Source: a virus. From it: a DNA stretch of 27,962 nucleotides. The notes beneath the pieces are model-generated. The model searched no databases. It saw only the letters and a program-made list of their open reading frames with translations, and was not told the DNA's origin. Position 1 is the stretch's first letter; each line of letters begins with the position of its first letter. Of this stretch, positions 15,710-24,764 are shown in pieces. The stretch spans positions 1 to 27,962 of IMG/VR virus record IMGVR_UViG_3300037264_001076; one strand, written 5' to 3'. Made by a program: the position numbers and the translations under genes.

Positions 15710-16432
15710 TCAAGGCCGCGCTGTCACGCGCCAGACGTTCACGGCCGCATGGATGACGGTCGAAATCCACGCCTCCCGATTCCGGGGCTTCATGTCCTCA
15801 AGCAGCCGCTTGAGCAGGCTGTGGATCATGGAGCAGGTCTGGCAGCAGGCTTCGGCGTGGGCGGTTGGCGGATTCCATGTCTGGCCGCACGTAGCGCAGG
15901 TCCGCATTCCGTACGGCGCAGACGCTGGTTTTGTGATCTGAGACGGCAACATGGTGCGTCTTACGCCGGGTTTACGCCCGGCCTTTTTTGGCTTAGGCGT
16001 GGTGGAGGGCTTGGTCGGCTGGATAAGGTGGACTCGTGGGTGGGCTGCATCCCAAGCGGCATAACCACACTGTCGGCTGCAGTACTTGGCCGATGGCTGT
16101 GAGGAATAGAACTCTGCCGCGCAAGAGGGACGTGCGCAAGTTCTTGATTTCTGCTCGAGTAGTGGTTGTGCGACGACGGTTTTCGATGCGTCTTTATGCA
16201 AGGCGTCCAGACAATAGTTCTGGATTTCAGACAGAGAGTTGAATACCAAAGATCCCTTGATTCTGTTGCAGACATGGCAGGCTGGGACGGTTCCCCTTCC
16301 ACCGGCTGCCTTAGGGCGCGGATGCTCGCGCTCCATTCTCAGGTGTACAGGCTTACCATTCCAAGTGACCAAAGATCCGAAGGTGCGGTGACAGTAGGTA
16401 CAGGCATTAGATCGCCTTGACATCCTACGCAT
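15710..16432 (-). CDS. HNH endonuclease-like protein with added zinc fingers
   Basis: A 240-residue protein, ATG 16432 (ATG 16423 possible). Residues about 8-60 form an HNH domain: CTYCHRTFG, then MEREHPRPKAAGG and CHVCNRIKG. Residues about 100-125 hold a second site CARPSC...KYCSRQC. A basic Lys/Pro/Arg stretch follows, then CATCGQTW...CCQTC and a C-terminal helix. HNH proteins of this kind nick or cut DNA in homing, packaging or recombination; which applies here is not clear. It has its own 107-base leader with short hairpins. The KPKKAGRKPG stretch is opposite a plus-strand terminator-like hairpin. Confidence 0.75.
   Translation of the reverse strand: MRRMSRRSNACTYCHRTFGSLVTWNGKPVHLRMEREHPRPKAAGGRGTVPACHVCNRIKGSLVFNSLSEIQNYCLDALHKDASKTVVAQPLLEQKSRTCARPSCAAEFYSSQPSAKYCSRQCGYAAWDAAHPRVHLIQPTKPSTTPKPKKAGRKPGVRRTMLPSQITKPASAPYGMRTCATCGQTWNPPTAHAEACCQTCSMIHSLLKRLLEDMKPRNREAWISTVIHAAVNVWRVTARP
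15965..15989 (+). terminator. intrinsic terminator-like hairpin, plus strand, antisense to the HNH gene
   Basis: GCCGGG (15965-15970), a six-base loop, CCCGGC (15977-15982), one C, then six T (15984-15989). It has the form of a Rho-independent terminator for rightward transcription. It lies within the HNH gene on the opposite strand, so it may only reflect Lys/Gly/Arg codons; it could also block readthrough from the late tail operon. Confidence 0.45.
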
Positions 16433-16539
16433 CGATACCCCAGGGTAAATCCTTCCTGAGGCTATTGCAACCGCAATCGGTGGCATTCTGTGATGCCTGT
16501 CAGACCGTCCAAGAACAGCCCCCTAGGGGTCTCTCTGGC
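16433..16539 (-). other. 107-base noncoding leader with short inverted repeats
   Basis: No gene is seen. The segment has a 10-bp palindrome CCCCTAGGGG (16520-16529), a hairpin GGCAT/ATGCC (16482-16486 with 16493-16497) and a hairpin ATTGC/GCAAT (16464-16468 with 16473-16477). All lie upstream of the HNH gene and would be in its mRNA leader. I find no convincing promoter here. Confidence 0.4.
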
Positions 16540-16764
16540 TCATGGGAGCTCGCTACAGGGGCCGATCACGTATTCGTAGAGCCCCGGCTCGAGCTCGCGC
16601 ATGGTGTAGCAGTCGCCGGATGAAGCGAATGTCCGATGTCCACGAGTGCAGAATGACTCTGGCAGGTTTCGGGCACGCTTGAGTAAATACTCGCGCAAGC
16701 ATGCCGCGCCCGATCCCGGGCGGGCATCGCGCAGCATGTGAAGCTGGTGGTCAAGATGCAGCAT
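16540..16764 (-). CDS. small protein, unknown
   Basis: A 74-residue protein, ATG 16764, overlapping the preceding gene's TAA by one base (TAATG). It begins with MLHLDHQLHMLRDARPG and a short helix REYLLKRARNLPESF. The C-terminal half is beta-like (YTMRELEPGLYEYVIGP). It is translationally coupled to the radical SAM-GNAT-methyltransferase gene and could therefore assist it, but no domain is recognised. Confidence 0.6.
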   Translation of the reverse strand: MLHLDHQLHMLRDARPGSGAACLREYLLKRARNLPESFCTRGHRTFASSGDCYTMRELEPGLYEYVIGPCSELP

Positions 16765-18950
16765 TACAGTCTACCGATCTTTGCGTAGCGGTCGGTTATC
16801 TCGGATGTGCTGCCCTTGTAGGCCACGATGATCTTCTGCTCGCGCTTCGGGAACTTCCGCGTATTCAGCGTGACCTTTGCTTGGGCCAGCCGCGTGAATT
16901 CACCTTCGAGGTAGACGATTCTGTTGTAGATGCTCAGGCCTTGGCCCCGCAGGAACAGCTCCGTCTCGGCCTCGGAACAGTGGTAGGCGCCCTTCCCGTC
17001 ACGGCTGTCGCCGGTCATCACGACGAAAAAGCATCCGTCGTTCAGGTGCGCGATTGCTCTCGCGTAGCCAGCAAACAACGTGTCGCGGAACTCATCGTAG
17101 GTAGCAAGCGAATTGATCTCGCCGGCCGGCGGCTTCCCGTCGTAGTCGAGGTACTTCTCGACCTTGTAATAAGGCGGGCAAGTGAATATCAGATCGAACA
17201 TGCCCTCTGGTTCGTAGGTCGAACTGTCGGACTGTTCCCATGTCACGCCCGTGAAGTCAGAACAGAGCAGGTTGTTCGCATCGCACTGGTTCTTCCGTAT
17301 CTCGCTCGCCAGGTATTCGTAGCCGTAGGAGCCAGCGACGTAGCCGAACTGGACGCCACCGCCGAAGGGGTTATAGATGCGCCGGCCATCGCGTGGCATG
17401 AAGAAACGCAGCACCACTTCACAGGCGACCGAGTCGAGTACCGATGCGTTCCCGTTGTGCGCGTGCCCGGTGACCACGTTGGCGAATCCGTTCGTCCCCT
17501 GCCAGCAGCCGTCGCGCGAGGCGAACATCGGGTTTGGGATGTCGCGGGCCTTACCGGTCGCCTCGATCTTCTCACGCCAGTCTTTCTTGAGCGTCAGCCA
17601 CATCCCTCGCGTCGAATCCCATACGTTCGTCATGGTGATATGCGCGAGAAGCTTCAGCCGTGAATCGGCAGCCGTGCCACGGCACATGTAATGGAACTCG
17701 CCCATCTTCAGGTAGGTTTCGAAACCAAGGGATTCGAAAAGCTTCGGTGTCTCGAACTTTGACTTGGGGTCGGTGGTCATGAAGCATGGATAGCCTGACG
17801 CATTAGCTCGGTCTATCACCTGCTGTACCATCGAACAGTAGAGCTCGGTCGTATGCAACTCGGGCTTGATGACGGACTGTAACAGACAGAACTCCCGAAC
17901 CTCATCGTTTACCTGGAATGTCATGAAGCCGGCGAAGGCTTCGTCGATGAGCAAGATGATCGCGGAGTGAATCTGCATGTTCTTCCGCGCGGCCCTGTGA
18001 GCGATTCCGTCTTCGAGGGCGAGCGTTGCTACGGCTTGCTCGTATCCAGAACCAATGACGCTTTTGACGTACTGGAACTCCACCTTACGCGAGAACAGTT
18101 GCTTCTGCGTCATCGTGATTTGCTCCCCCCCAGGGACGCCACATTGATCCGGGCAGTTGGCGCATTGCCCGATGTAAATTGATGGGTTGTGCAGTGATAC
18201 CAGCTTGCCGCCGCCTATCGAACCGTTACGCCGCGTGAGCGTGATCTGTCCGCTCTGCGCTAGCCGATGGGCTTTCGTCGCTCGAAGTGGATTGTCTATG
18301 ATCGGCGCGAGCGAGAGCAGATATGCCTGCTTCTCTCGCAATTCGGGTGACGTGAAATCACAGGTGACGACACGACAGACGCTCGTGACGCCGCCATCAC
18401 GTAGGCGGTCACGCTGCTGGAGTCGGTGCCTCAGTTCTGCCTCGGTGTCGAGGGCGCTGATAGATGTGTTGACTACTGCGCCCAACTCTCGGAGCGCGTC
18501 AATCTGTTCATTGTCCAACGCCAGCCAGTGCTTCGTTACGATGACCGGGGTCTTTTTAGTATGCCGGAGCGCTCGCAGCGTCGATAGCGTCCCGGACCAG
18601 TCATGGCATGGATCACCAGCCGTGCCGACGCGATACCAGGACACGGGGATATCATTCATCATCCGGATGAGCGTGCCCCGATGCTCGCGGCCGTGGATGC
18701 GCCGGCTCACGCTCACGGTGAAGTCGATACCGTAGCGAGCCGCAGCCTTGGCCGCATAGCACTCACCGTAGCAGCCACCGATCGGATACGCCGCCATGCC
18801 TCGGGTGCAGCCCTTCACCGTGTCGATATCGAGGCATCCCTTCCCGTTCTCCACCACGGTCAGCACCCCAGAATAGCGGCGCGGCACAACGGGCGGTAGC
18901 TCCACCGCCACCATCCAATCGAAGAGCCTTGCCGTCTGGCGGAACTTCAT
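16764..18950 (-). CDS. radical SAM-like / GNAT (Mom-like) / DNA methyltransferase fusion
   Basis: A 728-residue protein, ATG 18950; an upstream ATG at 18977 lies inside the promoter and is less likely. Domain 1 (about 1-280) has clustered Cys (GCTRG and GGCYGECYAAK: C48, C60, C64) and a TIM barrel-like run including YRVGTAGDPCHDW and TPVIVTKHW. It ends with CANCPDQC (C263, C266, C270). This fits a radical SAM enzyme with an auxiliary cluster. Domain 2 (about 285-425) resembles a GNAT fold, with VIDRANASGYPCF and LFESLGFE, possibly Mom-like. Domain 3 (about 440-728) has NPFGGGVQFGYVAG (SAM motif I, about 527-540) and FTCPPYYKVEKY (motif IV, about 589-600) of DNA amino-methyltransferases. A DNA base hypermodification role is inferred. 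Confidence 0.75.
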   Translation of the reverse strand: MKFRQTARLFDWMVAVELPPVVPRRYSGVLTVVENGKGCLDIDTVKGCTRGMAAYPIGGCYGECYAAKAAARYGIDFTVSVSRRIHGREHRGTLIRMMNDIPVSWYRVGTAGDPCHDWSGTLSTLRALRHTKKTPVIVTKHWLALDNEQIDALRELGAVVNTSISALDTEAELRHRLQQRDRLRDGGVTSVCRVVTCDFTSPELREKQAYLLSLAPIIDNPLRATKAHRLAQSGQITLTRRNGSIGGGKLVSLHNPSIYIGQCANCPDQCGVPGGEQITMTQKQLFSRKVEFQYVKSVIGSGYEQAVATLALEDGIAHRAARKNMQIHSAIILLIDEAFAGFMTFQVNDEVREFCLLQSVIKPELHTTELYCSMVQQVIDRANASGYPCFMTTDPKSKFETPKLFESLGFETYLKMGEFHYMCRGTAADSRLKLLAHITMTNVWDSTRGMWLTLKKDWREKIEATGKARDIPNPMFASRDGCWQGTNGFANVVTGHAHNGNASVLDSVACEVVLRFFMPRDGRRIYNPFGGGVQFGYVAGSYGYEYLASEIRKNQCDANNLLCSDFTGVTWEQSDSSTYEPEGMFDLIFTCPPYYKVEKYLDYDGKPPAGEINSLATYDEFRDTLFAGYARAIAHLNDGCFFVVMTGDSRDGKGAYHCSEAETELFLRGQGLSIYNRIVYLEGEFTRLAQAKVTLNTRKFPKREQKIIVAYKGSTSEITDRYAKIGRL

Positions 18951-18956
18951 GCCGAG

Positions 18957-18985
18957 AGTATAGGCCAAAAACGCCATCTTGACAA
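18957..18985 (-). promoter_or_regulatory. promoter for the fusion gene (leaderless start)
   Basis: Minus strand -35 TTGTCA (18985-18980), 17-base spacer, -10 TATACT (18962-18957). ATG 18950 follows six bases later, so the transcript should begin at or next to the start codon. The -35 box overlaps the opposing promoter's -35 box. Confidence 0.7.
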
Positions 18986-19006
18986 GATAGAATTTCGTGC
19001 TAGATT
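18979..19006 (+). promoter_or_regulatory. promoter for the early operon regulator (leaderless start)
   Basis: Plus strand -35 TTGACA (18979-18984), 16-base spacer, -10 TAGATT (19001-19006). ATG 19014 follows seven bases after the -10 box, as in leaderless cI-type transcripts. TAGAAT (18988-18993) and CTAGATT (19000-19006) resemble the half-sites at the SWIM promoter and could be operators. Confidence 0.6.
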
Positions 19007-19013
19007 GTGAGGC

Positions 19014-19199
19014 ATGACAGGCGAGGAACTACGGGAGCTGAGGGAGCGGCTGGCGCTGACGCAGCGCGAGGCGGCGATACGGCTGGACGTGACGGAGCGG
19101 ACGGTCAGCCGATGGGAGCGTGGGGAGGGGGGTATTCCTGCGCTCAAGGTCGAGGGGATCAGGAAGGCGCTCAACGGCGCCAAGGGGAAACCACGATGA
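19014..19199 (+). CDS. Cro/CI-type (XRE) helix-turn-helix regulator
   Basis: A 61-residue protein, ATG 19014, containing one XRE HTH domain: LRERLALTQREAAIRLDVTE (residues about 8-27) followed by RTVSRWERGEGGIP. The recognition helix TERTVSRWERG is typical of Cro/CI repressors that bind palindromic operators as dimers. There is no C-terminal peptidase or dimerisation domain, so it is Cro-like in size. It is the first gene of the early operon, diverges from the fusion gene and could control both promoters and perhaps the SWIM promoter. Target sites are inferred. Confidence 0.85.
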   Translation: MTGEELRELRERLALTQREAAIRLDVTERTVSRWERGEGGIPALKVEGIRKALNGAKGKPR

Positions 19200-23764: not shown

Positions 23765-24015
23765 GCACACAGACCAGAATCGAGTTCACACCCCTAGCAA
23801 GCCGCGTGTCTCAGCAGCGGCAGGGGAAGCGCGAGCGGATGCTGGCCCGGCTGCGGCAAGGCCCGGCAACGACGTGGGAAATGAACCAGATAGGTGGCTC
23901 TGGCTTTAGCGCCAGAATCAATGAGTTGCGGGTAGAACTGCGGAAACGAGGCGGCGATATCATTTTTGTGCCTCTGGGAGAAAGCGGTACGTACAAGCTG
24001 GAGGAGCAGGAGTGA
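23761..24015 (+). CDS. winged helix-turn-helix domain protein
   Basis: An 84-residue protein, ATG 23761 (ATGA overlap). Residues about 20-80 follow the pattern of the phage HTH_39-type winged helix: QRQGKRERMLARLRQGPATT, then INELRVELRKRGGDI and a beta hairpin ending GTYKLEEQ. Such proteins are common in phage early regions and are presumed DNA-binding regulators. It directly precedes the cytosine methyltransferase with a GTGA overlap and might regulate it or bind DNA with it. Confidence 0.75.
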   Translation: MSTQTRIEFTPLASRVSQQRQGKRERMLARLRQGPATTWEMNQIGGSGFSARINELRVELRKRGGDIIFVPLGESGTYKLEEQE

Positions 24016-24764
24016 CCCAGTTGGTGCTCTCGCTGTTCCCAGGTATCGGGCTTCTGGACATGGCCTTTGAGGAGGAGGGCTTCTGCGTGGTGCGCGGGCC
24101 GGATCTGCTGTGGGGCGGGGACATCCGGCACTTCTGCCCGCCGGTCGGCCGCTTCGATGGCGTGATCGGGGGGCCGCCGTGCCAGGCATGGAGCCGTCTC
24201 CGGCACATCGTCGAGGCGAACGGTTACAAGACGGCGCCCGACCTCATCCCACAGTTTGAGCGCGTCGTAGCCGAGGCAGAGCCACTCTGGTTCGTCATGG
24301 AGAACGTGCCGGCTGCGCCAGTGCCGAAGATACCGTCGTTCGCGGTGTCGGATCGGCTGATCGAAGACGCGTGGGTAGGCGGGGTCACGTCACGCCTTCG
24401 CCGTTTCTCGTTCGGCGGCACAGCCTACTACGCGCCACGATTCCTCGAGCTTGCCGGGCCACACCGTGAGCCCGAGCATTCCGCCTTGGCATCGGGGGGG
24501 GGGCGCCCGGTCCCGGTCGCGGTCGGCGGCAGTGGAAAGGTCAAGCGCAGCGCAAAGAGCGTCCTGAAGAACTACGGGTACAAGACGGCGGACGCATTCC
24601 GGGAGCACCTCCGGAAGCAGGGCCTCCCGCCTTGGTTTGATCTGCCGCCGTTCACGGTGTCGGCGAAATTCGCGGCGGTCGGCAACGGCGTCCCGCTCCC
24701 GATGGGCCGCGCCATAGCCCGAGCGGTCAAGACTGCGCTGTTTGCTGAGGAGCGGGCCGAATGA
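24012..24764 (+). CDS. C5-cytosine DNA methyltransferase
   Basis: A 250-residue protein, GTG 24012. Core motifs of C5-MTases are in order: LFPGIGLLDMAF (motif I, residues 8-19), GGPPCQAWS (motif IV, 53-61, catalytic Cys57), ENVP (motif VI, 97-100), SRLRRFSFG (motif VIII-like) and VGNGVPLPMG (motif X). It adds a methyl group to cytosine C5 using SAM. At 250 residues it is short for the family (usually 320 or more), with a small target recognition region near residues 140-215. No cognate nuclease is nearby, so it probably protects phage DNA. A run of ten G (24494-24503) sits inside the coding sequence. Confidence 0.9.
   Translation: MTQLVLSLFPGIGLLDMAFEEEGFCVVRGPDLLWGGDIRHFCPPVGRFDGVIGGPPCQAWSRLRHIVEANGYKTAPDLIPQFERVVAEAEPLWFVMENVPAAPVPKIPSFAVSDRLIEDAWVGGVTSRLRRFSFGGTAYYAPRFLELAGPHREPEHSALASGGGRPVPVAVGGSGKVKRSAKSVLKNYGYKTADAFREHLRKQGLPPWFDLPPFTVSAKFAAVGNGVPLPMGRAIARAVKTALFAEERAE
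24494..24503 (+). repeat. G10 homopolymer in the methyltransferase gene
   Basis: Ten consecutive G encode part of SALASGGGRP. The reading frame is intact at this length. Such a tract is prone to slipped-strand changes. Confidence 0.9.
24746..24760 (+). repeat. 15-bp direct repeat, copy 1
   Basis: The sequence TGAGGAGCGGGCCGA just before the ATG of the 72-residue gene. The second copy lies at 24977-24991. It contains GAGGAG and so also acts as a ribosome-binding site. Confidence 0.85.

Follow-up and report, generated by a model that had tools for sequence, protein, structure and literature searches.

A phage polypeptide combining radical SAM-like, GNAT-fold and DNA methyltransferase domains is a candidate enzyme for DNA base hypermodification

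Whether one phage polypeptide could by itself carry the activities that build an unusual DNA base is the question raised by a long gene in the window, i.e. the whole stretch of DNA analysed here, a virus record of 27,962 bases. On the minus strand, positions 16764-18977 form one intact open frame of 737 amino acids counted from the first ATG (alternative starts at 18950 and 18914), whose product combines in a single chain an N-terminal radical SAM-like domain (RS), a middle domain of GNAT fold (GN) and a C-terminal DNA methyltransferase domain (MT):

16764-18977, minus strand: three-domain open frame RS-GN-MT, 737 amino acids, conserved part starting at residue 35
18129-18890, minus strand: RS domain, residues 30-283, partial barrel resembling that of radical SAM enzymes (AF2 model, pLDDT 96.3)
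17658-18098, minus strand: GN domain, residues 294-440, of GNAT fold, RxxGxG acetyl-CoA loop absent (model, Foldseek)
16767-17645, minus strand: MT domain, residues 445-737, phage ParB-MTase family (phrog_12517, phrog_498), a SAM-dependent DNA methyltransferase

The sequence-only reading had placed a frame of 728 residues at 16764-18950; the frame exists, but on the minus strand instead of the strand implied and with its first ATG at 18977. Because those 728 residues begin at the second in-frame ATG (18950), the cysteine numbers given then are offset by nine: C48/C60/C64 and C263/C266/C270 correspond to C57/C69/C73 and C272/C275/C279 in the 737-residue numbering. A plus-strand reading of 16764-18950 is ruled out by stops throughout. 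Judging by its long relatives of high identity and its low dN/dS (0.04-0.11 in each domain against L001, with dS near saturation), the gene is no chance open frame, and all three domains appear to be under purifying selection, strong on RS and GN. Searches of the window protein against Pfam and NCBIfam found no domain.

The MT domain is assigned by its matches in PHROGs (phrog_12517, 3e-31; phrog_498, 1.8e-28), by tblastn, in which the window protein matches ParB-MTase phage proteins, and by alignment with ParB-MTases; the DNA methyltransferase domain proposed earlier is thereby supported, and its PFGGG and CPPYY motifs are present at residues 537-541 and 600-604, respectively. Foldseek of the full-protein model (overall pLDDT 76.6) also finds methyltransferases, TaqI and CamA among them. 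The two motifs are located as follows:

17355-17372, minus strand: methyltransferase motif I, NPFGGG, residues 536-541 (conservation, alignment)
17166-17180, minus strand: methyltransferase motif IV, CPPYY, residues 600-604 (CPPY being common to ParB-MTases)

With the ParB-MTase fusions of phrog_498 and phrog_12517 (comparators: Pseudomonas phage ZRG1, Enterococcus phage phiFL3A gp36 and Listeria phage B054 gp77) the window protein shares a homologous methyltransferase including the tryptophan-lysine leader, motif I and the CPPY motif IV; it differs from them in the NPFGGG/CPPYY variants, is about 24-34% identical and carries RS and GN in place of ParB. Indeed, no Pfam match to an N-terminal ParB domain was obtained, and residues 30-440 are occupied by RS and GN; as far as the sequences tell, the ParB of phage "CPPY" DNA methyltransferases is replaced by RS and GN in the family of the window protein. 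Because MT is akin to ParB-fused phage DNA methyltransferases, DNA is the probable substrate. Prophage regions show an enrichment of ParB-MTase fusions, for which a role in anti-defence or phage-host interaction has been suggested (PMC12704722).

For RS, no match at threshold was obtained with the Pfam and NCBIfam radical SAM models, PDB sequence-profile searches gave no meaningful match, and PF04055 is absent among the families listed (25 of 31) for the 62 members of the RS alignment. The AlphaFold model built on these 62 sequences reached a mean pLDDT of 96.3 and a pTM of 0.93. When it was compared with the PDB by Foldseek, all eight matches at E <=1e-3 were radical SAM enzymes, namely EpeE structures (2.3e-4) and the pyruvate formate-lyase activase PFL-AE (3.1e-4), with BioB, LipA, viperin-like, QueE and HydE matches ranking lower; in a viral structure library, phage radical SAM proteins rank first. 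The TM-scores are moderate (0.33-0.51 among the eight best matches, about 0.4-0.55 at best against solved enzymes), and RS is therefore regarded as a distant member: its place in the radical SAM superfamily is supported, and Fe-S and SAM chemistry would presumably go with it. The alpha/beta barrel-like fold that had been assigned to the middle of the protein exists as well, but lies in domain 1 (about residues 30-245), the middle being of GNAT fold. Four conserved elements stand out in RS:

18759-18809, minus strand: C57-x11-C69-x3-C73-Tyr-Ala after the first strand, presumed SAM-binding [4Fe-4S] site (conservation, position)
18609-18626, minus strand: GxxGDP, residues 118-123, following a core strand, where the GGE motif lies in radical SAM enzymes
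18447-18470, minus strand: N-T-S-x-S-x-L-D, residues 170-177, where radical SAM enzymes have their ribose-binding strand
18141-18164, minus strand: C272-x2-C275-x3-C279-Gly, closing the RS domain (conservation)

Both cysteine clusters reported earlier are thus present; their six cysteines are invariant in the 62-sequence alignment and at least 95% conserved in 76 RS domains. According to the model, C57 directly follows strand 1 and C73 lies ahead of a helix, a placement known from radical SAM enzymes, the spacing being C-x11-C-x3-C versus the canonical C-x3-C-x2-C; C57/C69/C73 are presumed to be the site of a putative SAM-binding [4Fe-4S] cluster. By their position in the model, GxxGDP and NTSxSxLD would be the equivalents of the SAM-binding GGE motif and the radical SAM ribose motif, whereas the C272/C275/C279 set (CxxCxxxCG) may form an auxiliary cluster or a zinc site.

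The nature of the domain that accompanies GN-MT is further illuminated by two contigs (L202 and L204) on which no RS domain was found: here, the GN-MT gene is followed by the gene of a different protein, with overlapping stop and start. The substitute protein matches PF04055 above the cut-off in L204 (9.5e-12) and just below it in L202 (3.7e-6), and its family, P0004, reaches the PF04055 cut-off (45.8 bits versus 29.5). The RS profile is similar to that of the P0004 family over 177 columns (score 39.2, E 9.3e-5), as against at most 26.9 for 60 controls (column-shuffled or reversed) and lower scores for unrelated profiles. From this swap of RS for a PF04055-type protein and from the RS/P0004 profile similarity it is concluded that the partner of GN-MT is a radical SAM enzyme; together with the Foldseek result on the pLDDT 96 model, both observations support the earlier proposal of radical SAM identity for domain 1.

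The P0004 family shows SPL-like motifs, and RS itself resembles DUF5131/SPL-like proteins in the Cys-x(n)-Cys-x(2-3)-Cys-(W/Y)-A start, in the GD(P/L) motif and in a weak profile similarity (DUF5131, E 0.0013, below the Pfam threshold); it is distinguished from them by the cysteine spacing of 11 and 3 and by the extra C-terminal CxxCxxxCG. Spore photoproduct lyase (SPL) belongs to the radical SAM enzymes and works on DNA, and RS could accordingly be conceived as a DNA-repair enzyme of this kind, with the other domains placing or marking the repaired site; such a role is hardly to be expected of the present protein, as repair needs neither a fused methyltransferase nor a GNAT domain and neighbour clustering revealed no recurrent repair partners nearby.

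In GN, weak sequence hints (3bln, E 0.96; Acetyltransf_1, 0.064) are accompanied by GNAT matches in the Foldseek search of the full model, including 3fix (4.6e-6) and 2i79, and the GNAT fold proposed for the middle region is borne out by the structure model and Foldseek. The stretch of GN aligned with the (R/Q)xxGx(G/A) acetyl-CoA loop is variable and has no conserved glycines; because this loop is missing, GN may be no acyltransferase. Almost invariant in the family alignment are RAARKNMQIHSA and EFCLLQS:

17964-17996, minus strand: near-invariant RAARKNMQIHS, residues 328-338 of GN (conservation)
17874-17894, minus strand: near-invariant EFCLLQS, residues 362-368 of GN (conservation)

A known GNAT-like protein of phages is Mom of phage Mu, which modifies adenine N6. 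GN has in common with Mom the GNAT fold, the occurrence in a phage protein, the presumed DNA target and the lack of a normal acetyl-CoA loop, but is devoid of the Mom motifs HYS, ELNR and S-x-AD. The designation as Mom-like did not hold as sequence homology: comparison with eight Mom proteins gave an hhalign E-value of 0.35, by which membership of GN in the Mom family is ruled out.

How constantly the three domains are associated was apparent from 74 non-redundant GN-MT proteins: RS is fused in 43 and encoded by an adjacent gene in 28 (15 before, 13 after), two have the other radical SAM family as partner and one has none. The domains thus also occur as separate neighbouring genes, a point raised by the sequence-only reading, and a radical SAM partner is fused or adjacent in 73 of the 74 cases, the RS count being inflated as many of these loci came from the RS query. 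Of the 65 loci that the GN query was the first to retrieve, RS is present in 58, the substitute in two and neither of them in two, while in the remaining three the contig end falls close to GN-MT. Arrangements changed at least 15 times on the tree (shuffled mean, 28.5); GN and MT were always together in the proteins kept for it. RS without GN-MT beside ParB genes is rare (L075/L076 and L096, the last also adjoining a PAPS-reductase-like gene), and no MT domain was found on the L075 and L096 contigs. Conversely, GN-MT without RS occurs in L166 and L167, whose neighbouring genes are identical in kind and evidently represent one phage lineage; the 40.8 kb contig of L167 contains no RS or PF04055 match. 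Neighbour clustering within 7 kb revealed no dedicated partner gene in the relatives, and the few neighbour families common to them are, by sequence, mostly replication/recombination genes and terminase; the module therefore seems self-sufficient apart from host metabolites.

A conventional orphan DNA methyltransferase of phages (m6A or m4C), in which RS and GN would act as DNA-binding or regulatory stand-ins for ParB and no radical chemistry would take place, could account for the family membership of MT, the missing acetyl-CoA loop of GN, the position of RS under the Pfam radical SAM threshold and the one phage with GN-MT but without RS; it is nevertheless considered unlikely in view of the conservation of the six RS cysteines, the strong purifying selection acting on both RS and GN and the PF04055 protein that takes the place of RS twice on the tree. 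The interpretation preferred here, with a probability of roughly 0.58, is that RS-GN-MT works as a phage enzyme complete in itself, hypermodifying a base in the phage's own DNA: since the three domains keep company in many uncultured phages, they probably make an unusual DNA mark, most likely for the purpose of escape from host nucleases. In this hypermodification, MT would bind the DNA and hold the target base, RS would cleave S-adenosylmethionine to yield a radical, GN would hold or transfer a second group, and MT would methylate an exocyclic amine or the previously added group, the order of these reactions being putative; by analogy with Elp3, the joint outcome would be the addition of a carbon group to the base.

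Elp3 combines radical SAM and GNAT domains and, with the Trm9/ALKBH8 methyltransferase acting subsequently, builds mcm5U at the tRNA wobble uridine. The window protein is analogous in the succession of radical SAM and GNAT domains within one chain and in the methyltransferase function after them, but has no acetyl-CoA loop, and its methyltransferase is of DNA type and fused. Profile searches of the PDB with RS or GN brought up no Elp3 chain, nor is Elp3 among the listed Foldseek matches of the RS model. A single-chain Elp3-like radical machine is put forward tentatively, as a possible but somewhat doubtful specification of the preferred reading: a carbon group would be added to the DNA base by radical SAM chemistry together with a non-acetyl-CoA GNAT pocket, and the fused methyltransferase would position or cap it. 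To our knowledge, there is just one case of a radical SAM-GNAT pair succeeded by a methyltransferase, and its target is tRNA; moreover, Trm11 tRNA methyltransferases are among the full-model Foldseek matches. Both would agree with an enzyme acting on RNA, e.g. a phage protein corresponding to Elp3 plus Trm9 that perhaps serves tRNA repair or protection in infection. This is judged quite improbable for a protein whose closest MT relatives are ParB-fused phage DNA methyltransferases, in which no tRNA-binding domain was recognised, and whose genomic context consists of DNA replication/recombination genes in a 27,962-base window free of tRNA genes.

The folds and the methyltransferase family are known; their combination and setting were not found described. 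Specifically, no description of the RS-GN-MT architecture was found in the open-licence papers searched (subscription surveys lay outside this scope, and prior mention is possible), and a class of DNA base hypermodification of the Elp3-like kind was likewise undescribed in the papers searched. Should RS-GN-MT indeed hypermodify DNA, one phage polypeptide would link radical SAM chemistry directly to the modification of DNA bases; the protein could be expressed as a possible source of a new base, would be a likely anti-restriction tool, and would allow testing whether DNA is a target of Elp3-type radical chemistry.

The RS-GN-MT family is widespread in uncultured phages. A first IMG/VR scan yielded 21 relatives, many of them 55-79% identical across nearly full length, and profile scans yielded 199 (RS) and 234 (GN), some redundant, of which the best 80 each were kept. 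Full-length relatives were found neither among 50,697 phage records, where the MT part alone matched, nor in the plasmid collection, where one plasmid matched in the MT part only; searched alone at E up to 1, the window GN and the L096 RS protein had no match in the same phage records. GTDB species genomes contained four loci, all fused, with the titles Desulfobacula, Desulfobacterales, Spirochaetes and Smithella. Desulfobacula, Desulfobacterales and Smithella are anaerobic groups, and anaerobic hosts would suit an oxygen-sensitive enzyme, though four loci prove little. Some copies are impaired: the gene in L021 (1311-2220) is damaged, with the protein middle lost, and the frame is broken once each in L006 (9977-11864) and L014 (6252-8485), which from the sequence may reflect decay or assembly error.

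Within the window, the minus-strand module has plus-strand genes on either side, tail genes at one flank and recombination/replication genes at the other; HNH-like and SprT-like genes lie within its block. A regulatory gene is positioned divergently:

19014-19199, plus strand: small HTH (Xre-type) gene, divergent from the module (sequence)

Within 18950-19199, the promoter-like sites of this gene and of the module overlap, a -10-like site sitting just 5' of the second ATG of the module; regulation is putative. The arrangement is reminiscent of controller proteins in restriction-modification systems. The G+C content at 16000-19000 is 57-60% versus about 65-67% at 13-16 kb and 19-20 kb, a base composition compatible with recent acquisition. 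The same phage encodes a C5-cytosine DNA methylase (PF00145) at 24012-24764, and a gene of C5-cytosine-methylase appearance is located near the module in four relatives, too.

Radical SAM genes were also observed next to ParB-domain genes, with RS or the substitute in this position in L096 (4699-7926), L217 (444-1457), L208 (5393-5833) and L211 (2840-3886), where the ParB protein of L211 additionally bears DUF4417; such loci hint that ParB-linked modification modules of phages may form a wider family. ParB or PAPS-reductase genes lie near the substitute family in several contigs, and PAPS-reductase-like (PF01507) genes adjoin the RS or substitute proteins of L096 and L217. In L075 (5971-9224), the genes of RS, of ParB and of another radical SAM protein distinct from RS (PA0069-like, 481 aa) stand in a row, followed by terminase. 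Pseudomonas phage ZRG1 (L138; 5494-7339 and 10990-11589) has a ParB-MTase of the same MTase family; its gene and that of an adenosylmethionine decarboxylase overlap, and the nucleotide-modification gene Nmad5 lies close by. The donor of this ParB-MTase might be decarboxylated SAM, possibly for aminopropylation of DNA.
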